The notes under the pieces were generated by a model. That model was not told where the DNA came from and did no database searches. It saw nothing but the letters and a program-made list of their open reading frames with translations. A stretch of DNA of 64,000 nt from Mesorhizobium loti (lineage in GTDB: Bacteria; Pseudomonadota; Alphaproteobacteria; Rhizobiales; Rhizobiaceae). The translations under genes were made by a program, and so were the position numbers. Where the stretch lies: assembly GCA_002356515.1 (NCBI GenBank), contig AP017605.1, positions 1,860,001 to 1,924,000 of the forward strand. Reading direction: 5' to 3'. This document shows positions 31,942 through 43,504 of the stretch, in pieces (position 1 is the stretch's first letter; each line of letters opens with the position of its first letter).

Positions 31942-32931
31942 ATGGCCAAAGCTGTTTCAAAGCCTCAAATACCAGTGTGGCTTAAGCACCGGGGGAAGGA
32001 CCCTTATCCTGACATTCGACCGGCGCTTCTTTCGCGAGAGCACATCAAAATTTATGCCGAAACCACTGACATGATCGAGGAATTCGAAGAGAAGAGGTTG
32101 AAGGCAGCGTCTTATGAAATGAAAATTGGTCGGCAGGTTTGGAGGTGGGAGCCCAATTCACCCGAGCCGATTTCTGTAACATTGAAAGAAGGGGATCTAC
32201 TTTACCTTCAACCGAACTCTATAACATTTGTTCAGCTATCTAGCGAACTGCGATTACCGCTTTATATAGCTATGCGTTTCAATTTGAAGATTAGATTTGT
32301 TCATAGCGGAATACTTCTTGGAACCGGCCCCCTTGTTGACCCAGGCTACAGGGGAAATCTTCTTATACCGCTACATAATTTGACCGACACTGAATGCGTG
32401 ATGGATTTGGACGAGGGTCTTATATGGGCCGAATTTACCAAGACCACGTATGATGAATCGTCTGACACAGAAATTTTCGGGACACAAGAACCGATAGATC
32501 CAGCAAAACTATCAAAACCTCCTACTTGGTGGTTCAAGCACGCCAACGGCGGAAAGCCTGTGAGAAGCTCAATACCCATGGCAGTGAGGACGGCAGAACA
32601 ATCAGCTAAGATCGCGGCTAATCAGGTATCATTTCTGACGTCGGTGGGCGTCGTTGCAATAATTCTTGGTTTAGGCGGAATTTTTGCGGTCTTGCAGGGC
32701 GTTAACAGCAATATCGCAGACTCGAACGCAGTGGCGAGAAGTGCTCGGTCATCGATTGACGATTTCCGCAAGGAGATAGCCGAAAGCAATACGCAACAGA
32801 TTTCAAGATCGACAGCACCACTGTCGTCATCACTTGCCGACGCTATTGATAAAATTAAAGGCCTTCAGAAAGAAGTTTCGGACTTAAATGCGAAGATTGA
32901 GACGCTCGAATCACAGAAGAAAGCCCCCTGA
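31942..32931 (+). CDS. DCD/dUTPase-fold protein with membrane anchor and coiled coil
   Basis: A 329-aa protein. Residues about 25-170 match the dCTP-deaminase/dUTPase trimer fold: SYEMKIG (57-63), LQPNSITFVQLS, GILLGTGPLVDPGYRGNLLI. The deaminase's catalytic Glu (in VLEF after the DPG turn) is replaced by Pro143 and the RSSxxR segment is not kept, so deaminase activity is unlikely. A transmembrane helix (about 231-252) and a coiled coil (about 300-325) follow. Inference: a membrane-tethered nucleotide sensor. The gene is AT-rich and its end is 4 bases from the converging PurZ-like gene. Ribosome site weak (AAGAGAAAA). Confidence 0.75.
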   Translation: MAKAVSKPQIPVWLKHRGKDPYPDIRPALLSREHIKIYAETTDMIEEFEEKRLKAASYEMKIGRQVWRWEPNSPEPISVTLKEGDLLYLQPNSITFVQLSSELRLPLYIAMRFNLKIRFVHSGILLGTGPLVDPGYRGNLLIPLHNLTDTECVMDLDEGLIWAEFTKTTYDESSDTEIFGTQEPIDPAKLSKPPTWWFKHANGGKPVRSSIPMAVRTAEQSAKIAANQVSFLTSVGVVAIILGLGGIFAVLQGVNSNIADSNAVARSARSSIDDFRKEIAESNTQQISRSTAPLSSSLADAIDKIKGLQKEVSDLNAKIETLESQKKAP

Positions 32932-32935
32932 ACCA

Positions 32936-33988
32936 TCAGGCGGCACCCAATACAGGCGCAGACCTGTCAATGACATTTAACGGAGAAAATCCAAACCAGT
33001 CTATTCTTCTAGATACTTTTGTTTCGAAAGAATTTATAAAACGCCTAACGGCACTTGATTTTTTCTCAATATCTTCGATTTCACCAATATAATCCAAATG
33101 ATTAACAACAATGCGGGTGGGGTTATTCGCGTCAATTGCTCGCTTGACCAAATCAAATTCAAACAATCCGACACGACGCAGTTTCTTTGTGACAGTTGTA
33201 TATTCCCGAATATCCATTTTCAGCCCACTTTGGCGAGCTATCTCCTCCCACGTTGTTTCATGTGTTAGGGGACCTGATTGACCAGCAACTCGTATCGGAT
33301 AAGATCTGAGAACCATTGTTACGTCATCGACGTCCAATGGGCTTAATCCTGCTTCGGATAACGCCCCAGCTGCTGTAGTGGAGCGAGAGGTTACTTTTGG
33401 CCAAAAACCACTCTCGAGCAATGAGAGGCCAAAACCCTGTGTTCCCTCAATAATGATCCTACAGCCGTTCACAAGGGAGCTGCGCAGTTTTTGTGTGGTA
33501 TCACACAAAAACTGCTCCAACGGTGCTGAGTGTCGAGCATCAAGTGATGTTAGATAGATGTTTGGAGCTTCTCTAGCTACTGTAGCCAGGACTGCCGCTC
33601 CGACACCCGAGCCCGTTGAGCCGATGGTGCTAACAAGCTCCGCGTCACGCTCCCATTTTTTGTGTTCTTCCGAAATAATCCGGGCATGCGGGCTAATGAA
33701 AATACGCTCCTGTGGATAGTGAAGGGCGTCAATTTCGGCAAAAAGTAGTTCAACATCGAGATATGATCCAGCCGGAAATACGACGTCCACATTTCGATCA
33801 ATGCAACCAGCGGGCATTTGTCGTAGCGCCCATTTCCTACCGGAGTGATCATACCCAGTATGGCCTGAATTAGGGCCGCCGACCCGAACTACCGTCACAG
33901 GTTCTCTCGCCCTACGAGCAATCTCGAGAGCGACTTTGCCTTTTCCCTCAGAGCCGAATTGTCCGCCAACTACAATTGAGACTGGCAC
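32936..33988 (-). CDS. PurZ-like adenylosuccinate synthetase paralogue
   Basis: A 350-aa protein, far shorter than housekeeping PurA (about 430). PurA motifs remain: P-loop GGQFGSEGKGK (8-18), GHT (42-44), STIGSTGSG (120-128), EGTQGF (181-186), VTKKLRRV (246-253) and NHLDY (276-280). Position 13, the catalytic Asp in PurA (GDEGKG), is Ser. As I recall, phage PurZ enzymes, which condense dGMP with aspartate to make the 2-aminoadenine precursor, share this change, the length and the QFGS, GRKW, EGxQGF and TTVTKK segments. GTG start 33988. Its 5' end overlaps the fusion gene's 3' end by 19 bases: one operon. AT-rich. Substrate untested. Confidence 0.8.
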   Translation of the reverse strand: MPVSIVVGGQFGSEGKGKVALEIARRAREPVTVVRVGGPNSGHTGYDHSGRKWALRQMPAGCIDRNVDVVFPAGSYLDVELLFAEIDALHYPQERIFISPHARIISEEHKKWERDAELVSTIGSTGSGVGAAVLATVAREAPNIYLTSLDARHSAPLEQFLCDTTQKLRSSLVNGCRIIIEGTQGFGLSLLESGFWPKVTSRSTTAAGALSEAGLSPLDVDDVTMVLRSYPIRVAGQSGPLTHETTWEEIARQSGLKMDIREYTTVTKKLRRVGLFEFDLVKRAIDANNPTRIVVNHLDYIGEIEDIEKKSSAVRRFINSFETKVSRRIDWFGFSPLNVIDRSAPVLGAA

Positions 33989-35859
33989 TTTTCCATCCCG
34001 TCCATGCTTTGCACAACACTGTCAACCCTTGCCAAAATCTCAGCTTTGGTCGTCTCATTCACAAATATCTCATGCGCCAACGGCCTCAACTCTCCAACTC
34101 TGCCTTCCACTTCCGATTGCGTTGCAGCCTCGAACCTTCCTTCTAGGGCTCGTTCTTGATACCGCCCGCGTCTTATTCGCTCCCCAGCGTCGATAAAGAC
34201 ATGACGAAAACGCGCACCGAATTTTTCCACCAGATACGCATGATCTTCAGGAAAACGAAGCCCGTCGACAACGATTCGTTGAGCGCCTTCGACGCGTCTC
34301 AACGTTTGCTCGGCTAACCATCTTTGACGCCCTGTATCCTGTATCTGGCGACCCAATTCCTGGCGACTCTCTCTGTCAAGCTTTCGGCCCTGTTCGATGA
34401 GCAGATCATCCAAGACAAGGCTGAATCGCGTATACGCAAACCCACAGCGCTCCAAAGCCTTGGCGAAGGTTGTCTTTCCAGCTGCGATTGGGCCGCTCAC
34501 CCCTACGACGATCGGGCCGGTTGCGGCATCCAGTTTGGGAATGATCAATGGTGGCTCCTCCGCAGTGCCTAGCGCTTCGGAAATGCCCGCCAAATGGAAT
34601 GTGCCGACAAGTGCAGAGGTAATCGCATCAAGCTCATCATGGGAGACGTTACCATCCACAAAGTCGCCTTCAATTCCAAATTCGCTCAGACCGAGTTTCA
34701 GCCACTCGACTCCCGCTCCTTTGCGGGGTATCCGCATAATGTCCTGGGCAGCCCCTGGGTAGCTCTCGATAACCGGAATGCCTTGTTCTCTTAGCACGCT
34801 TGCAAGGCGAATACCCCGAGCAGTCAGTTTCTGCATGCTTGGCAAGAGGCAAGGGTAGACGTTCACCCCGCGCCGTTTGAGTTCCCGCTCGCACACCCTC
34901 ATGATGCCGAACTGCTCACGTCCTGGATCGGAATCGTCGACAGTGATCCTGCCAACGGGCAGGCAAAGCGGAGAGTCAATCGAAACAAGGTCCGGCTTCG
35001 CACCGATAGTGCGACCCAGGATTGCGTCATCACTGAAGATCGTTTCAGTGATGGCCTGACTGCCGTCCAACAAGCACCACCCTGAGCCGCGACTTTCCGA
35101 GCCGGTGAGATCGATACCGACAACGCGTGCTTCGGCAGCGGGACCATCCGCAAGAAGTTGATTGAAGTGAGGCGCAGAGGCCAGGTCGAAGGTCGCGGGC
35201 CGAAGCGCAGGCAGATTTGTCCAGCCAGACGGAGCAGCCCAAGACAAAAATCTGGTTATCCCCGAAAACAAATCCGGATCGATCTCCAATCGATCCAGCA
35301 CATGATCGAAGATAGCACCCATTGCGGCTATATCAGCGCGGTTATAGCGAACAAGAGTTTGAAGCGCACCGAAATCACCTCGGAGGTACCGATGCCACAA
35401 CAAGACGGCAGCGAACCCATCTAAATCACCGATATCGCTCCGCAGTTGGATACCGAGCTGCTTCTCGATTGCCTTTTGTCCTCCGGTCAGACCTACCCGA
35501 CGGCAAAGGTACATCAGGTCGAGATGTGTGCCGGGCAACTCTATATCGGGAAACTCCTGCCGGATGAACCGCTGGTCGAATCGAATACCATTGAACGTCA
35601 CCATGGCGATTGCGTTTTTCGCATCCTCGGCCAACTCTCGGTGATGGTCACCCTTCACCAAGGTTGAAGCGCGCCCTCCAATGGACCAACCTATGACCGT
35701 TATCTCATCGTAATGGTGGCTAAGACCTGTCGTCTCGATATCGAGAAATAGAACTCTATCCGGCTGTGTCGCGCATAGCGCAAGTTGCTCCCTAAGCCGG
35801 AGAGGCAGCGGCCTTCTGCGCATCGAAGGCCGAGTTTCACCTATTGAGGGGGCCAACAT
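33970..35859 (-). CDS. Exonuclease (YprB-type) - DUF429 - dNMP-kinase-like fusion protein
   Basis: A 629-aa three-domain protein from ATG 35859 (frame open to a GTG at 35940). Residues about 33-190: DEDDy 3'-5' exonuclease of the YprB/RNase H-like kind (LFLDIETTG at 37-45, FNGIRFD, and YNRAD). About 244-443: DUF429, also an RNase H-like fold (GIDLTG, SIDSPL, RVCERELKRRG, ESYPGAAQ, HDELDAITSAL). About 452-620: P-loop kinase resembling phage dNMP kinases (GPIAAGKT at 456-463, then RQELGRQIQDTGRQRWLA). First gene of an operon with the PurZ-like gene. I know of no named family with this order. Confidence 0.8.
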   Translation of the reverse strand: MLAPSIGETRPSMRRRPLPLRLREQLALCATQPDRVLFLDIETTGLSHHYDEITVIGWSIGGRASTLVKGDHHRELAEDAKNAIAMVTFNGIRFDQRFIRQEFPDIELPGTHLDLMYLCRRVGLTGGQKAIEKQLGIQLRSDIGDLDGFAAVLLWHRYLRGDFGALQTLVRYNRADIAAMGAIFDHVLDRLEIDPDLFSGITRFLSWAAPSGWTNLPALRPATFDLASAPHFNQLLADGPAAEARVVGIDLTGSESRGSGWCLLDGSQAITETIFSDDAILGRTIGAKPDLVSIDSPLCLPVGRITVDDSDPGREQFGIMRVCERELKRRGVNVYPCLLPSMQKLTARGIRLASVLREQGIPVIESYPGAAQDIMRIPRKGAGVEWLKLGLSEFGIEGDFVDGNVSHDELDAITSALVGTFHLAGISEALGTAEEPPLIIPKLDAATGPIVVGVSGPIAAGKTTFAKALERCGFAYTRFSLVLDDLLIEQGRKLDRESRQELGRQIQDTGRQRWLAEQTLRRVEGAQRIVVDGLRFPEDHAYLVEKFGARFRHVFIDAGERIRRGRYQERALEGRFEAATQSEVEGRVGELRPLAHEIFVNETTKAEILARVDSVVQSMDGMEKCQSQL

Positions 35860-36059
35860 TACGCGTTCGTTCCAATTGCTGCCTCTAAGGGCAAAAGAGT
35901 CATACGAGTGGGGCAATCGGCACAAAAAGCGGATATACACATTTCACGCTTGCGGCCCCGCCGAACGCTACCCATTTTATGGCTCATTGGCGACACCCCT
36001 GATTCGGATATTCAGAGGATAGTGGACGCAAACGTGAAGCGCACGGGAGCCTTTCAGGT

Positions 36060-36353
36060 TTGAAACGCGTTAAGTCAGAATTCAAAGTTGGCCCCTACGA
36101 GGTGACGATCGAATCAGTGGTCGACCGCGAATCGCGCCTTCACGACTATGGCTTTGAAAAAGCCACCTGGCATCGTGGTGTCAGGATAATGCAGCGCTAT
36201 GGTTCTGATAAGGCGCTTGAGTTGATGGACGAACGTGCAGATAGGGCTCTGGCACGAAATGACGTTAAACGCTGCCACAGATGGCGCGACTTAATGGCTG
36301 TAATTCATGCAATAGAAAATGACGAGCCCCAGCCCACGGACAGAGTCCATTAG
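36060..36353 (+). CDS. Small hypothetical protein
   Basis: A 97-aa soluble protein. MKRVKSEFKVGPYEVTIESV suggests paired strands; RALARNDVKRCHRWRDLMAVIHAI suggests helices. TTG start 36060 with CAGG close by is tentative. It is divergent from the fusion gene and overlaps the end of the RlmJ gene by 4 bases. Lower GC than the flanks. No family recognised. Confidence 0.6.
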   Translation: MKRVKSEFKVGPYEVTIESVVDRESRLHDYGFEKATWHRGVRIMQRYGSDKALELMDERADRALARNDVKRCHRWRDLMAVIHAIENDEPQPTDRVH

Positions 36354-37177
36354 GCTCCGCCAGCTACCCATTCGACAGACCATTTTCCTTTGGGGCCGCC
36401 AATTAACGTCATCAATTCATGGCACAAATTCCGCAAACTCTCGTCCACCGTCCAAGGAGTGTTGCAAATGATGATTCCGCTACCGGCGAGCCGAATGCCA
36501 TCTCTTTCATAAGGCAAGAATTCCGCGCGCAACGTTTTTTGGAACTCAGCCGAAACAGTTGCACCTGCAATTTCATCACCGATGGCCGAATCCTTGATTG
36601 GGTACCAAACAAAAAACACGCCTGTTGCCCATTTTTTCGCGCCGATTCGTAAGGCGTTCGCAAGTTGCGTTGTTTCATCCCTCTGTTCGAAAGGAGGGTC
36701 TATGAAGACCAGTCCTCGGCGTTCCTGAGGTGGCAGGAGGGCCTTGATGGCCTCATAGCCGTTGCGCAGTTGCACCGAGATCTTTTGGTCAAACTGGTAG
36801 CGCCTCTCCAATCGAAGGCCATCTTCGGGGTGCAACTCACATGCTATCAGTCGATCACCTTCTCTGAGCATTCTCCGAATAATCTCCGGCGAACCCGGAT
36901 ACGTGGTGATGGAATCTCCGTTCATTTCGGCCAAGAGATCGACATATTGCGGGGCGGATATAAGCTTTCGACCAAATATCCTCTCGACCCCGGCTGCCTT
37001 TTCGCCGGTTCTCTTCGCCTCCTCTGATGTCAGATCATACGAACCAATGCCGGCGTGGGTATCCAGCACCATGAAGGGCTGAGGTTTCTGAGCCAACCGT
37101 TTGAGCACTATGGTCAGAGCCGCATGTTTAAAGACTTCGGTGTGGTTGCCGGCGTGAAAGGCGTGCCGATAGTTCAT
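36350..37177 (-). CDS. rlmJ: 23S rRNA (adenine-2030-N6)-methyltransferase family protein RlmJ
   Basis: A 275-aa RlmJ/DUF519 methyltransferase, which methylates N6 of A2030 in 23S rRNA. It starts with the family's NYRHAFHAGNHTEVFKHA. The SAM motif is VLDTHAGIGSYDL and the catalytic FIDPPFEQRDE (D/N-PP-F/Y type) is near residue 165. Compared with its GC-rich neighbours it is AT-richer, so it may have come with the island; whether the genome has another rlmJ cannot be seen here. Confidence 0.88.
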   Translation of the reverse strand: MNYRHAFHAGNHTEVFKHAALTIVLKRLAQKPQPFMVLDTHAGIGSYDLTSEEAKRTGEKAAGVERIFGRKLISAPQYVDLLAEMNGDSITTYPGSPEIIRRMLREGDRLIACELHPEDGLRLERRYQFDQKISVQLRNGYEAIKALLPPQERRGLVFIDPPFEQRDETTQLANALRIGAKKWATGVFFVWYPIKDSAIGDEIAGATVSAEFQKTLRAEFLPYERDGIRLAGSGIIICNTPWTVDESLRNLCHELMTLIGGPKGKWSVEWVAGGA

Positions 37178-37892: not shown

Positions 37893-38486
37893 TCACCGCG
37901 CCATCATCATCCCGTAGTGCACCGCCAGCAGGTCGAGCCCGACCTTCAGCAGCTTCGTCACCACGTCCCTTCCCTCACCCGTCTGTTCCGCCAGGCTCTT
38001 GATCGAGCCACCGGCGCAGCAGACCTGTCGCACCACCGCCGCGACCTCCCAATGGCATAGCGCTCTCGTGGCGGCGGCATGCGCCCGGCCGGCGTCGAGC
38101 ACGCTGTCAGCGATGCCGCCGCCATGGCGGCCGCCGTCGACGCGTTCGGTCCAGCGCATCGGTTTGACGCTGGCCTGCTGGCTGCATTGGAAATCCTCGC
38201 GGTAGCGCTGGCCGGCCTCGCGCTGCTGGCGCGACAGCGAGGTGATGCCGATGAGCGGATCGACATTGCGCACCCGCACGATGCCGCCTGTCGAGGTGTA
38301 GCCGTCATTCGACACTTCGTAGACGCGTCGCGCTTCAGCCGTGCCGGCGTTGAGCCGCTTGCGGCCGAAGGCGTCGTCGCTGAGTGCGAAATCATGGCCG
38401 ATCTCGCGGCGGATGCGCACCTGCTCGGCCTCGCCCTTCGGCAGTTTCGGCGCCTGCGGTTTGGCGGCTTTGGCTTTTTTGGGCAT
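37893..38486 (-). CDS. DUF6456 domain protein (phage-type)
   Basis: A 197-aa protein. Lys/Pro-rich N-terminus (MPKKAKAAKPQAPKLPKG), then the DUF6456 core: QRYREDFQCSQ, DAGRAHAAATRAL, VVRQVCCAGGSIKSLAEQTG, VVTKLLKVGLDLLAVHYG. This domain is frequent in rhizobial prophages and regulatory genes; role unknown. GGAGCCACCCC precedes the ATG. It is the distal member of the leftward phage early operon; a decayed copy is at 37189. Confidence 0.75.
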   Translation of the reverse strand: MPKKAKAAKPQAPKLPKGEAEQVRIRREIGHDFALSDDAFGRKRLNAGTAEARRVYEVSNDGYTSTGGIVRVRNVDPLIGITSLSRQQREAGQRYREDFQCSQQASVKPMRWTERVDGGRHGGGIADSVLDAGRAHAAATRALCHWEVAAVVRQVCCAGGSIKSLAEQTGEGRDVVTKLLKVGLDLLAVHYGMMMAR

Positions 38487-38546
38487 GGGGTGGCTCCTTG
38501 GGCTTGGGGTGTGGTGTCTTTGGTTGGAGAGGTCGGCGGAGATGAA

Positions 38547-38852
38547 TCATCGCGCCACCTGCTTCGCCGGTACTTGCGCTCCCCGCCGCGCCATCAGCTC
38601 GCGCATCGTCCGCCGCTCCCGCACCTCAATGCAGAGCTGCGCGCTTGACGGGCAGAACTGGGCGTTGCCGCTCTTCACCTCGCCGCGCACGAAGCGCTGG
38701 ATGGCGGCCTGCAGGTCGGCAAGCTCGGCGTCGCGCACAGCACCGAGATAGCCGCGCATCTGCATCTCGACATCAGTCAGGGCGGATTGCGGGAAGCATG
38801 AGAACATCGCCGCCAGCGCCTTCGTCGCCTGCTGCAGTTCGGCTGCGGTCAT
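38547..38852 (-). CDS. Hypothetical phage-type protein
   Basis: A 101-aa helical protein starting MTAAELQQATKALAAMFSCF at ATG 38852. It ends with basic residues (RRTMRELMARRGAQVP). Its first 80 bases overlap the end of the DUF1376 gene in another frame, as is usual in compact phage operons. The segment VEMQMRGYLGAVRDAELADL with FCPSSAQL resembles small proteins next to phage replication genes. No known function. Confidence 0.65.
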   Translation of the reverse strand: MTAAELQQATKALAAMFSCFPQSALTDVEMQMRGYLGAVRDAELADLQAAIQRFVRGEVKSGNAQFCPSSAQLCIEVRERRTMRELMARRGAQVPAKQVAR

Positions 38853-39465
38853 GGCTGCGGATCTCCTCGATGATGGCGTTGGCGGCGTCGGTATGGGTTT
38901 TCGGCCGCTGCCAGCCGGGCTTCTTTCCCGAGAAAACGGGAGCTGTTCTGGTCTTCCCCGCAGAAGATAAATGCTGCGCATTTTCAGGGGAGGACACCTC
39001 TTGTTCTTCATGAGCCGAAAAATGCTGCGCATTTTCAGGGGAAAAAGCGGAAGCTTTTTCACTCTGGTTTCTGGAGTCTGGAGAATGCCGCGGCAAAGCG
39101 CCGGCATCTGCTGGAGGATGCGCCTTTGTTTTCAAGGCGGTAGCAGCACCACCACGTGCCCCGGCGGCGGCCCTCGCCTCGCTTTTGACCTGCGCCTTAT
39201 GCAGCTCTCTGGTCAGCCTCTTGTGGCCGATCTCGCCTGACTCGCGCTCGAAGAAGGTCAACAGATCGCCACTGATGGCGCGCCATCTCTTGAGCGACAG
39301 CCGCGCCACCCGCGCCAGCTTGGCGTCGTCGTCGGGCAGCCGGCCGCCGGCGTTCCACATCGCCATCAGGATGAGCATGTAGGCGCCGATCTGCTCGGTG
39401 GAGAGCTGCAACGTGTCGCCGACGAAATCGGAGACGTAGAGCTGCATGAAGGGCCGCTCGCTCAT
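38773..39465 (-). CDS. DUF1376 phage replication-type protein
   Basis: A 230-aa protein. Residues 5-75 are a clear DUF1376 domain (LYVSDFVGDTLQLSTEQIGA, then GRLPDDDAKLARVARLSL), found in phage replication-initiation (O-like) proteins. The rest is low-complexity and includes two copies of SPENAQH encoded by a 22-bp direct repeat near 38972 and 39029. It probably recruits the host helicase or binds phage origin DNA. Overlaps the 38547 gene. Confidence 0.8.
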   Translation of the reverse strand: MSERPFMQLYVSDFVGDTLQLSTEQIGAYMLILMAMWNAGGRLPDDDAKLARVARLSLKRWRAISGDLLTFFERESGEIGHKRLTRELHKAQVKSEARAAAGARGGAATALKTKAHPPADAGALPRHSPDSRNQSEKASAFSPENAQHFSAHEEQEVSSPENAQHLSSAGKTRTAPVFSGKKPGWQRPKTHTDAANAIIEEIRSHDRSRTAAGDEGAGGDVLMLPAIRPD

Positions 39466-39551
39466 ACCTGCCCCATGCTTGCACGCACGCTAATGGAACC
39501 AGCCGCCAGCCCGCACGTTATGACGCGACCATGCCAGAGGGAGGTGTTTCG

Positions 39552-39833
39552 ATGACGGCTTTCATGCCGATTACGCTGCGCTTTTGCGACAACAAGACCA
39601 TGCTGGTCGGCTCGGTCGCCGACGCCGAGACGGCGTTGCGGCACCATTGGCCCGACAAGACCGCACCCGCCTATGTCGAAGCCGTGCGGCTGGTCAGGTT
39701 GGCGGTCGATGGCAGTTGCTGCCCGCGCACCGCCTTCGAGGCCTTCAGCAAGGCCGCCTGGCAACAGGGAATATTGATGGTCAAGCCGAGAAGCCGGGCG
39801 CATGATTGGCTCGACGCCGCCGCCAACCCGTGA
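39552..39833 (+). CDS. DUF982 protein 1
   Basis: A 93-aa DUF982 protein: VGSVADAETALRHHWPDKTA, a Tyr/Glu helix, CCPRTAFEAFSKAAWQQGIL. The helix-WP-helix pattern and length are typical. GGGAGGTGTTTCG precedes ATG 39552. Rhizobial genomes hold many DUF982 genes; no function established. It is divergent from the DUF1376 gene within the phage remnant. Confidence 0.8.
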   Translation: MTAFMPITLRFCDNKTMLVGSVADAETALRHHWPDKTAPAYVEAVRLVRLAVDGSCCPRTAFEAFSKAAWQQGILMVKPRSRAHDWLDAAANP

Positions 39834-39923
39834 AGCCCGCGCGAAGGCGATGCAACCGCCTGGCGGCCTCGCGCGTTTATGAGCGTCGGCTTGAATGCCG
39901 CGCCGAGATCGAGGGTGAACGCC

Positions 39924-40235
39924 GTGGGTACGATGAAAACGCCGCTCAAAGTAAGCCTGGACGGACATGTCGAGGAGATCGACAGCGTCAGCGATGCCGC
40001 CGATTTCCTGCAACGCTGGCCGATCGATCGGCGCGGCCATGTCTACCGCAGCGCGCTCAACGCCTGCAGTGCCGCGATCGCGGCACAGATTTCCGAATCC
40101 GACGCGATGAAAGTGTTCACCGGCTTTGCCCGCGTCGCCGGCATCCTGGTTGCCGAAGCCGGCCCGGCCATGCGGCTGGAGGCACGCACCGTGCAAAGCC
40201 GCATGCCCAAACAGGGCCGGCAGATACCGAAATAG
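39924..40235 (+). CDS. DUF982 protein 2
   Basis: A 103-aa DUF982 protein (IDSVSDAADFLQRWPIDRRG, then AMKVFTGFARVAGILV). GTG 39924 is preferred because GAGGGTGAACGCC lies in front; ATG 39933 is the alternative. A basic C-terminal extension (QSRMPKQGRQIPK) follows the domain. It lies 90 bases after DUF982 protein 1 and converges on the GcrA-type gene with a 2-base gap. Confidence 0.75.
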   Translation: MGTMKTPLKVSLDGHVEEIDSVSDAADFLQRWPIDRRGHVYRSALNACSAAIAAQISESDAMKVFTGFARVAGILVAEAGPAMRLEARTVQSRMPKQGRQIPK

Positions 40236-40237
40236 GC

Positions 40238-40915
40238 TCACTGGCAAACCCGGCGTTGAAACCGCGCCTGGTGGTAGCCGCAGTAGCTCTTCAGCCCTTT
40301 GGTCCGCATGCCGCAGCACAGCATGTCGCCGCCGGGCCGGCCGCCCGGCGCGTCGTTCTCCGGGTCCTCTTCCAGCGTCAGGTCGAGCGGCGCGCGGCAT
40401 CGGGCAAACAGGCAGTCGATGAAGCGCATCGCCACGCCATGCGGCTGGCGGCCGATGGGTCCGCGCGGCGGCGCCGGCACCTTGAGACGGTAGGCCTCGC
40501 CATCGGCGATCAGCACGCCCACCTCGCGCACGAATAGGCGCGGCGGCAGCCAGGCCGGCGAGGAATCGCGTCTGGTCCGGGCGTTGCTCTTGCGCGCTGC
40601 GGTACCCTTGTCGGCATGGACGCCGACGCGCTTTTCCGCGGCCGCCTTGCCGCTCGCCTTGCCCTGCTTTGCAGCCGCCGGCTTGCGTATTGCCTGTTCG
40701 CCGGCGGCCTGTCTCACAACCTTCGGCATCCCCCGGCCATTGGCAAAGCCGATCGCGCCCAGCATGGCGTTGCGGTGGACGATGCCGATGATGGCGTTGC
40801 GCGACACCGCGCTGCCGCGCAGCGCACTGAACGCCGCCGCGATCCTCGAGGCCGAAAGCCCCTCCTTCAGCCAGCGGGCGATCTCTTGCAGTTCGGCGTC
40901 GCTGTAGCTTGCCAT
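40238..40915 (-). CDS. gcrA: GcrA cell cycle regulator family protein (phage-type)
   Basis: A 225-aa GcrA-like protein. The N-terminal DNA-binding module (YSDAELQEIARWLKEGLSAS, then GSAVSRNAIIGIVHR) is followed by a basic Ala/Lys linker and a C-terminal zinc-type Cys cluster (CRAP, CCG, YCGYH). Host GcrA activates sigma-70 promoters bearing methylated GANTC; prophage copies are common and may redirect that control. The insert makes it larger than the chromosomal GcrA (about 170 aa). It is in the leftward arm of the phage remnant. Confidence 0.82.
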   Translation of the reverse strand: MASYSDAELQEIARWLKEGLSASRIAAAFSALRGSAVSRNAIIGIVHRNAMLGAIGFANGRGMPKVVRQAAGEQAIRKPAAAKQGKASGKAAAEKRVGVHADKGTAARKSNARTRRDSSPAWLPPRLFVREVGVLIADGEAYRLKVPAPPRGPIGRQPHGVAMRFIDCLFARCRAPLDLTLEEDPENDAPGGRPGGDMLCCGMRTKGLKSYCGYHQARFQRRVCQ

Positions 40916-41042
40916 GTCCAGGCTCCATCCAGGGGGCCGCCTTCGGCCGCGCCGGTGAGCGCGCCGTCGGCCAGGCGTCAGGGTTCAGGCCCGGTCCGGG
41001 CCACAGTCAGAGGTTCGGTGCGAAAGCCGGCTCGCGGGCGGA

Positions 41043-41423
41043 TCAGCCGGAGCGGATCGAATGCCCGGCGCTCAGGCGCGCCAGCCGCGCCTCGGCTGTC
41101 TTTCTGTCAGGGGCGGAAACCGCCCTGCCCGTCATCGGCTCGAACAGGATGACGGTGCCGTCCTGCGTGCGGATGCAGGAGCGCGCGTATGGACCGGCAT
41201 CATGCCGGTCGAATGGGGGGCCGGAGCCGAGGGGAGCGGCGGCTCCGGCCGTTCCGGCCGCCAGAGACGGGCAGACCGGACCCGAGGCATCAAAGCGCTC
41301 GGGCTTCGCCCCGGCCGGGGAGGACGGCCGGGACGGAAGGGAATGGCTGGCGACTTCGGTCGCCTTGTTCGCCTCACGCGAGGCTGGCGCTACCGCGCCA
41401 TGAAGACTGGACAGGTTCTGCAT
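41043..41423 (-). CDS. Hypothetical protein next to the phage repressor
   Basis: A 126-aa ORF, Ala/Ser/Pro-rich for 75 residues, then a compact part (CIRTQDGTVILFEPMTG, then APDRKTAEARLARLSAG). ATG 41423 is chosen because it lies next to the operator-bearing divergent gap; no strong ribosome site. In temperate-phage layout this is the position of the first rightward/leftward early gene opposite the repressor. No family recognised. Confidence 0.5.
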   Translation of the reverse strand: MQNLSSLHGAVAPASREANKATEVASHSLPSRPSSPAGAKPERFDASGPVCPSLAAGTAGAAAPLGSGPPFDRHDAGPYARSCIRTQDGTVILFEPMTGRAVSAPDRKTAEARLARLSAGHSIRSG

Positions 41424-41433
41424 GACCAGATAT

Positions 41434-41450
41434 AAGCATAACTCAAAAAT
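41434..41450. promoter_or_regulatory. Phage operator, copy 1
   Basis: AAGCATAACTCAAAAAT in the gap between the divergent 41423 and 41498 genes. Its exact reverse complement is at 43992-44008. A 17-base perfect match at two early promoters suggests a repressor operator. Confidence 0.65.
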
Positions 41451-41497
41451 ATATGCAAGCCATTCTTTCATAGACGAGAGCCGCTTTCATCGCTCAC

Positions 41498-42202
41498 ATG
41501 GGCGCCATGGCAAAAACGGAACTGTCGATCAAGGTCGGAGCGGCGATACGCCAGGCGCGCAAGCAGCGCGGCCTGGTCATGCGCCACATTGCCGAGCATA
41601 ACGACACCGATGTCGCCGCCGTCGGCAATTGGGAAACCGGCCGCAACCTGCCCAAGACCGAGAACCTGCTGAAGACCGCCGCCTTCCTGCGCGTCGACCC
41701 GGTGGCGCTCGGCCAAGGGCAGGTCGTCTTCCTTGACGATGCCGGCCCGGTGGCCGACGCCGAGATCGTCACCGATGCCGGCCCGATGCCGGCCGGCTCA
41801 ATGGATATCGAGGTGCTGGGGGCCGCGGTCGGCGGCGACGACGGCGACTTCACCTTCAACGGCGAGCCCGCCGGCTACGTCCAGCGCCCGCCGGGCGTGC
41901 GCAACCTGCCGAAAGTCTTCGCCCTGCATGTGCTGTCCGATTCCATGGTGCCGCGCTACGAACCCGGCGACCTCATCTATTGCGGCGGCCGCGACGCCGT
42001 GCCCGGCGACCATGTGGTGATCGAGACGTTTCCGGAAGAAAACGAGAAGAACGGCAAGGCCTTCATCAAGAAGCTGGTCAAGCGCACAGCGGGCGAGCTG
42101 GTGGTCGAGCAATACAATCCGCCGAAGACGCTGACCTTCAACCGCTACGCGATCAAGCATGTCTGGCGGGTGATCCCGCTGAAGGAATTGCTGGGGTATT
42201 AG
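41498..42202 (+). CDS. Phage-type repressor (HTH + S24 LexA-like peptidase domain)
   Basis: A 234-aa CI-like repressor. HTH at about residues 12-65 (VGAAIRQARKQRGL, then VAAVGNWETGRNLPKTENLL). The S24 domain has the candidate nucleophile Ser149 (LSDSMVPRY), a Lys at 191/192 (AFIKKLVKR) and a possible Ala125-Gly126 cleavage bond. So it could be inactivated by RecA-stimulated self-cleavage. ATG 41498 or 41507. It is divergent from the 41043 gene; a 17-bp operator lies in the gap and another before 44060. Confidence 0.88.
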   Translation: MGAMAKTELSIKVGAAIRQARKQRGLVMRHIAEHNDTDVAAVGNWETGRNLPKTENLLKTAAFLRVDPVALGQGQVVFLDDAGPVADAEIVTDAGPMPAGSMDIEVLGAAVGGDDGDFTFNGEPAGYVQRPPGVRNLPKVFALHVLSDSMVPRYEPGDLIYCGGRDAVPGDHVVIETFPEENEKNGKAFIKKLVKRTAGELVVEQYNPPKTLTFNRYAIKHVWRVIPLKELLGY

Positions 42203-42213
42203 CGCCTCTTTTT

Positions 42214-42272
42214 CCTTCTCCCCCTTGCGGGAGAAGGTGGATCGGCGCGTCAGCGCCGAGACGGATGAGGGG
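42214..42272. repeat. RIME-type palindrome, left of IS110
   Basis: CCTTCTCCC (42214-42222) / GGGAGAAGG (42229-42237), then GTGGATCGGCGCGTCAGCGC and GAGACGGATGAGGGG. It is the near-perfect mirror image of 43514-43568, so the IS110 element sits inside a RIME doublet. Confidence 0.8.
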
Positions 42273-42282
42273 TGCGTGACGG

Positions 42283-43504
<1,222 letters not shown>

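Follow-up and report, generated by a model that had tools for sequence, protein, structure and literature searches.

The known enzymes that come closest to the one described here are the PurZ and PurZ0 proteins of phages. In the available part of PMC8342488 the substrate contacts unique to PurZ of phage S-2L are given as S23, T273 and Q308, and in that of PMC12884076 a 2026 tree, for which at most two prokaryotic PurA homologues were sampled per phylum, places four archaeal and no bacterial sequences with the phage PurZ group. A defense system that is close in idea is Kongming (KomABC, with dITP as signal). According to the accessible sections of PMC12948488 it makes a base-modified deoxynucleotide from a deoxynucleoside monophosphate (dNMP) by deamination of adenine, with a kinase step provided by the phage, a sensor, and an effector that depletes NAD+. 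We have analyzed 64,000 nucleotides of Mesorhizobium loti (contig AP017605.1, positions 1,860,001 to 1,924,000 of the forward strand; hereafter the window). On its minus strand (33988..32936) lies a gene with a GTG start for a PurZ-like synthetase of 350 amino acids, embedded in a cassette with an exonuclease-kinase protein and a membrane protein of the DCD/dUTPase fold.

Within the P-loop of the synthetase the sequence is GSEGKG, with Ser13 at the position of the catalytic Asp of PurA, and the QFGS, GRKW, TIGSTG, EGTQGF and TTVTKK segments are all present. The open reading frame (ORF) and its signature segments are as the original prediction had them; not given there were the strand and the adjoining genes, from which most of the meaning derives. 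Ser13 is invariant in a 10-row alignment (A1). The protein matches the Pfam Adenylsucc_synt model far beyond chance (2.5e-47), as it does the two phage Z-pathway models that rank first for it in PHROG and NCBIfam: phrog_1211 ('adenylosuccinate synthetase', 8.9e-75) and PurZ (NF038379, 5.7e-76). The latter match, at 255.5 bits, lies below the 300-bit cut-off, which PurZ of phiVC8 passes with 397.2 bits. Both NCBIfam purA cut-offs are failed (TIGR00184, 191.3 against 395.55 bits; NF003295, 246.4 against 368 bits), and the closest solved structure is 7vf6 ('PurA-like', 8.5e-51). One full PurA of 592 bits is found elsewhere in the host genome, which comprises 8.45 Mb in 4 contigs. With a full PurA elsewhere, the catalytic Asp lost and the PurA cut-offs missed, we reject the housekeeping enzyme as the identity of the window protein. 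Of the S-2L contacts listed in the part of PMC8342488 cited above, Ser13 and Thr264 are kept and Asp299 replaces Q308; by the same source Ser13, Ser124, Thr264 and Asn296 are in the PurZ-like state.

The position of the protein was examined in a tree of 43 rows calculated with IQ-TREE, with supports given as bootstrap/SH-aLRT. Bacterial and haloarchaeal PurA separate at 100/100, and between them and the remaining rows lie two sequences that have Asp, the PurA of a Pyrococcus and a toyocamycin-like enzyme from rhizobia. The other 34 rows, all with the P-loop Ser, form one clade at 100/99 that contains the window protein, placing it outside the housekeeping PurA clade; the nine viral rows were retrieved with the pattern QFGSEGK, so that their Ser is there by construction. 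Inside this clade phage PurZ and two copies from small alphaproteobacterial genomes make a group of their own (100/95), three PurZ0 references and one viral row make another (100/99), and the kinase-fused type C lineage a third (100/99). The window lineage, comprising types A and B and two viral rows, is separate at 100/99 and mostly cellular. Here the window protein clusters with sequences from Sinorhizobium, Mesorhizobium and a gammaproteobacterial metagenome-assembled genome at 100/100, outside both the phage PurZ and the PurZ0 clades. Type A by label is not a single clade (two changes are needed), the copy of genome G029 joining type B and the viral rows. A 72-row quick tree is concordant, with the same Ser clade and the same window group; it holds 38 of the 75 viral loci, and the 43-row tree 9.

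With phage PurZ (phiVC8, S-2L, SH-Ab 15497) the window protein has in common Ser for Asp13, Thr264, Asn296, its length and the superclade; unlike phage PurZ it carries Asp299 for Asn or Gln, stands outside that clade, has no Z cluster beside it and falls below the NF038379 cut-off. It resembles phage PurZ0 (Wayne, Rasovi, Hiyaa) in Ser13, Thr264 and Asp299, and differs from it in clade and at Asn296, where PurZ0 has Thr. The predicted PurZ-like character stands in the sense of a PurZ-type enzyme, given Ser13, the other residues, the tree and the separate PurA, and does not extend to phage PurZ or PurZ0 proper. Sequence comparison favors the PurZ type over a housekeeping function, and because of these same four features the substrate is probably a guanine-type nucleotide, as had been proposed. 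The phosphate donor may be GTP-like.

The synthetase gene does not stand alone. A 656-amino acid protein is encoded on the minus strand (33970..35940), upstream of purZ and overlapping its start by 19 nt. Residues 64-214 form an RNase_H_2 3'-5' exonuclease domain in which D67, E69, D122, Y199 and D203 are invariant, a pattern that we take to be that of a DEDDy-type exonuclease. There follow a DUF429-like domain of RNase H fold (about residues 270-460), with weak Pfam support, obtained in loci L001 and L064, and a P-loop domain resembling nucleoside monophosphate (NMP) kinases (about residues 475-650). The VIA rows cover the kinase domain only, so that for the other two domains the fold is read from sequence. 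On the other side of purZ, on the plus strand and convergent with it across a gap of 4 nt, lies the gene for a 329-amino acid protein (31942..32931). This has a DCD/dUTPase-fold domain (about 20-170), a hydrophobic helix (232-250) and a coiled coil (262-326). The fold is indicated by PF22769 (35 bits, cut-off 27) and by Foldseek (2qlp, 1.4e-10, TMt 0.78). The catalytic Glu of dCTP deaminase (E138 of E. coli Dcd) corresponds to Pro143 when aligned to the Glu of 4xjc, and Pro occupies this position in 116 of 120 DCD homologues, the other four being unmatched; Asp133 of the dUTPase site is retained. An active dCTP deaminase is rejected as the identity of this protein on account of the Pro. Its PADLOC matches to LeoBC and LmuB (in the 1e-3 range) fall in the coiled coil and are not believed. 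In the 656-amino acid protein it is only the kinase domain that responds to the dCTPase profile of PADLOC (2e-5, over positions 152-283 of the 630 in the profile). This is the likeness to dCTPase/AvcD systems; unlike them, no deaminase part is matched, and the DCD protein of the window is membrane-anchored, with Pro in place of the Glu.

The exonuclease-kinase, PurZ-like and DCD genes occur together in all six loci including the window, and these were reached independently from each gene. Searching with PurZ led to three genome loci, each having both partners. The exonuclease query found one genome besides that of the window among 398, with PurZ and DCD genes adjoining, and the DCD query one among 347, where the exonuclease, a separate kinase and PurZ adjoin. 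Of the 120 values for the length of the longest contig listed with PurZ matches, at least 51 recur among those listed with exonuclease matches, unshared values being uninformative. The cassette genes are rare and sporadic. When 385 genomes of the class were surveyed with the PurZ model, six scored above 175 bits, including the host, three with type C and two with type E, and the next scored 152.7; the model also responds to ordinary PurA, in 12 of 14 control genomes, none above the cut-off. The nearest named kin are Neorhizobium, Sinorhizobium and Mesorhizobium, which makes the predicted rhizobial host plausible.

A second PurZ cassette, type C, is found on plasmids and chromosomes at seven loci (L010:7449-11916, L013, L014, L012, L048, L049 and in part L047). 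It consists of a kinase-PurZ fusion and DUF7002, joined in six of the seven by an HD/YfbR-like gene and a 450-amino acid protein of unknown function. The kinases score 45-65 bits against the window kinase and other P-loop proteins 16 or less; of the 15 P-loop ORFs compared five are cassette proteins and one a deoxynucleoside kinase, the other nine reaching at most 3.8 bits or being unlisted. By sequence, the type C kinases are specific relatives of the window kinase. The type C fusion loci on rhizobial plasmids share with the window the superclade and kinase family, with HD and defense genes nearby, and differ in having DUF7002 as partner instead of the DCD protein and in their separate clade. 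Combined structure and sequence searches with DUF7002 and with the separate kinase of L064 gave nothing informative. Type B, on a Sinorhizobium medicae plasmid (L009, 48% identity), has an HD/YfbR-like gene, PurZ and a DCD-like gene, adjoining BilA and BilD; the HD matches at L009 and L010 (20.1 and 22.5 bits) are below the 25.9 cut-off.

Toyocamycin-like clusters were considered as a further class and rejected, since type D (L011) keeps Asp, scores 443.1 bits against the 368 of NF003295 and lies outside the Ser clade. This cluster, on Rhizobium leguminosarum plasmids (L011:7375-15721), comprises folE, the PurA-like gene, purB, QueE, IMPDH, nitrile hydratase, QueC and a phosphoribosyltransferase, and presumably resembles 7-deazapurine biosynthesis of the toyocamycin/sangivamycin type. 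Separately, a phage-type PurZ with Ser, which groups with phage PurZ at 100/97, lies between cmk and a Ham1-like gene with rpsA (L045:6030-7067, L046:6240-7283) in two small genomes of a single alphaproteobacterial genus, G448 and G643, with sizes of 1.6 and 1.8 Mb and completeness of 99% and 91%. Canonical PurA was not found in either, and the best match to the purB model was below cut-off. Either PurZ serves as PurA in these organisms or Z nucleotides are handled.

Relatives of the window PurZ are carried by 75 viral contigs, of which three have a partner of either cassette: an HD gene (L079), DUF7002 (L118) and a kinase (L134). The last, on a contig of 5.9 kb, ends just before the PurZ start at the contig edge and is related to the window kinase (35% identity, E 4e-9). 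An exonuclease-kinase alignment, in the form of two peptide patterns, picked out 38 stretches in the viral contigs, with no confirmed relative. Because viral PurZ contigs mostly lack the partners and no viral exonuclease-kinase was confirmed, the cassette as such appears to be cellular. One viral gene closely related to the window PurZ (L065:6264-7304, 47%) is isolated, on the other strand from the surrounding genes of a phage contig, which look structural, and might be a cargo or counter-defense gene. As anticipated, no DatZ or MazZ was seen beside the window gene among neighboring ORFs and profile matches, with no dedicated search made for MazZ. A prophage Z cluster is rejected, as no Z-cluster gene was seen adjoining purZ and the two exonuclease-kinase patterns gave no confirmed relative in the viral contigs.

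The interpretation that we favor, tentatively and at somewhat less than an even chance, is that of a mobile, modular cassette of nucleotide chemistry, most likely anti-phage, in which the product of PurZ and kinase is read by the membrane DCD-fold protein. The PurZ-like enzyme would join aspartate to a guanine-type dNMP, probably dGMP, to give dSMP, which host PurB may convert to dZMP. The NMP-kinase domain would phosphorylate the dSMP- or dZMP-type product and host Ndk complete the triphosphate. The DCD-fold protein, anchored in the membrane and lacking the deaminase Glu, would bind the unusual nucleotide and act there as sensor-effector. For the exonuclease and DUF429 domains two roles are conceivable, the provision of dNMPs out of broken-down DNA or an attack on DNA within the response; the trigger could be dNMPs that are set free as the phage breaks down the DNA of its host, or by the exonuclease of the cassette itself. 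Gene content, conservation, residues, folds and linkage are seen in the sequence; substrate, product, signal role and defense we infer. A fuller version, a family of bacterial immune systems in which a 2-aminoadenine-type or succinylated deoxynucleotide made by a cellular PurZ is an alarm, charged by the built-in kinase and read by the deaminase-dead DCD protein so as to disable the infected cell, we consider a rather doubtful possibility. Compared by description, with no Kom protein search made, the best explanation is a cassette that works like Kongming without being a member of it: the likeness is in idea only, in the modified deoxynucleotide made from a dNMP, the kinase step and the sensor, and the adenine deamination, phage kinase and NAD+ depletion set Kongming apart.

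The gene neighborhood fits a signal or anti-phage nucleotide, an alternative already raised in the original prediction, better than it fits 2-aminoadenine DNA. PADLOC was run on proteins picked by eye, covering ten related loci in part and with no random-locus baseline, and on this footing clear catalogued defense matches occur at five of the ten: RmrA directly after the cassette (L001), BilA and BilD (L009), SIR2, HerA and AbiEii (L014), a type I restriction enzyme and PDC-S06 (L047), and PDC-S32 (L013). PADLOC or Pfam matches of three neighbor genes at L009 and L010 were left uncounted, since these encode generic proteins of the UvrD or HD type. L010 gave only a generic UvrD-type match, and L048 only partial helicase-type matches. 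The window PurZ itself has no clear PADLOC match.

Several observations weigh against the proposed cassette function, beginning with this selective sampling. No defense match was found in the proteins scanned at L002 (one), L064 (three) and L049 (one), nor any clear one in ten proteins flanking the window cassette, where the helix-turn-helix of the repressor gave a single match to RmrA at 23.8 bits. Asp299 is the PurA/PurZ0 state, where phage PurZ rows carry Asn or Gln. In the window the DCD gene runs against purZ, whereas in the other five loci the two are co-directional, and the type B DCD protein (L009) has no clear hydrophobic helix. Finally the model assigns no clear role to DUF429, a second RlmJ-like methyltransferase and a 97-amino acid protein.

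The last two are neighbors of the cassette. The 97-amino acid protein, of unknown function, is encoded on the plus strand (36060..36353) and has the same place and orientation in L001 and L002 (57% and 68% identity). The methyltransferase (36350..37177, minus strand, 217 bits) has copies of ~60% identity beside the cassette in the same two loci; the other RlmJ of the host genome (277 bits) lies elsewhere, and an RlmJ-like gene at the L050 cassette (31% identity) may be the housekeeping copy there. Measured in 2-kb steps, the GC content is 47-55% over about 31-38 kb and 57-70% in the rest of the window, so that the predicted AT-rich island is real in relative terms. Beside it (37893-43504) lie a phage-type DUF1376/primosomal gene, a repressor-like S24/helix-turn-helix gene and an IS110 transposase, which suggests mobile DNA. 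Next to two type A cassettes (L064:8943-9683, L002:10726-11439) is a family of 237-246 amino acids that starts MQNRY (40% identity), with no Pfam, NCBIfam or PADLOC match. In the G029 cassette the gene immediately after that of the DCD protein (L050:10248-10853) encodes a deoxynucleoside kinase (PF01712, 2.3e-24).

Among other explanations the one that survives best, though we think it unlikely, is that the cassette drains a pool. Exonuclease, PurZ and kinase would consume dGMP and dGTP, together with aspartate or GTP, the DCD protein would hydrolyze another deoxynucleoside triphosphate (dNTP), and the phage would starve. Depletion of dNTPs is an established strategy, as in the Clover dGTPase described in the available part of PMC12265719. 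The dUTPase-site Asp makes hydrolysis by the DCD protein conceivable, whereas its deaminase Glu is lost. The AvcD deaminase is reportedly a further example of such defense. Depletion does not, however, need a kinase to add phosphates to the PurZ product, and because the kinase is fused or adjacent to PurZ we favor the making of a charged product over mere draining.

Quite improbable is a modification system, in which dZTP is made in order to put 2-aminoadenine into the DNA of the cell or of a mobile element, for instance against restriction. Phage PurZ does this (PMC12884076 and PMC8342488, in the parts available), and ordinary polymerases accept Z, according to the latter. However, no dATP-removing HD gene, MazZ or DNA polymerase is present in the type A cassettes read, no polymerase accompanies the three genes where they recur, and the phiVC8 HD protein used as a genome-wide query matched none of eight genomes, in a search without positive control. 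We also assign a low probability to a role outside defense, in which damaged or modified nucleotides are salvaged or cleared away: exonucleases, NMP kinases and the dUTPase fold are salvage and sanitation types too, and the second RlmJ is unexplained, but the cassette genes are rare, sporadic and low in GC, defense genes adjoin their relatives of types B and C on plasmids, and the transmembrane sensor-like protein would be left without explanation. That the enzyme is an adenylosuccinate synthetase paralogue still using inosine monophosphate is very improbable in view of the replaced catalytic Asp, the missed PurA cut-offs and the full PurA elsewhere, even though the enzyme shares Asp299 and a large part of its scaffold with PurA, and although G448 and G643, where canonical PurA was not found, suggest that certain PurZ-type proteins might take over its function.

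No description of the cassette was found among the open PubMed Central papers listed. Adenylosuccinate, PurA, PurZ and DUF429 are all absent from the available portion of PMC13092281, and the literature matches for DUF429 that we examined concerned DUF4297 instead. Defense by nucleotide signals is already known in kind; the cassette looks undescribed. A signal that was a Z-type nucleotide would constitute a new class. If the alarm-signal reading is true, the Z-genome enzyme of phages and a signal enzyme would have a common ancestor, and natural triggers or evaders would be the Z-phages, since infection by them fills the cell with the nucleotide. The operons are short and cloneable with clear catalytic residues, so that the question of which modified nucleotides act in immune signaling can be put to a direct test. 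The origin of the Z pathway is also touched upon by a bacterial PurZ lineage that is sporadic and yet constantly accompanied by a nuclease-kinase and a membrane-bound protein of nucleotide-binding fold, and this lineage suggests the existence of a modified dNTP outside phage genomes.
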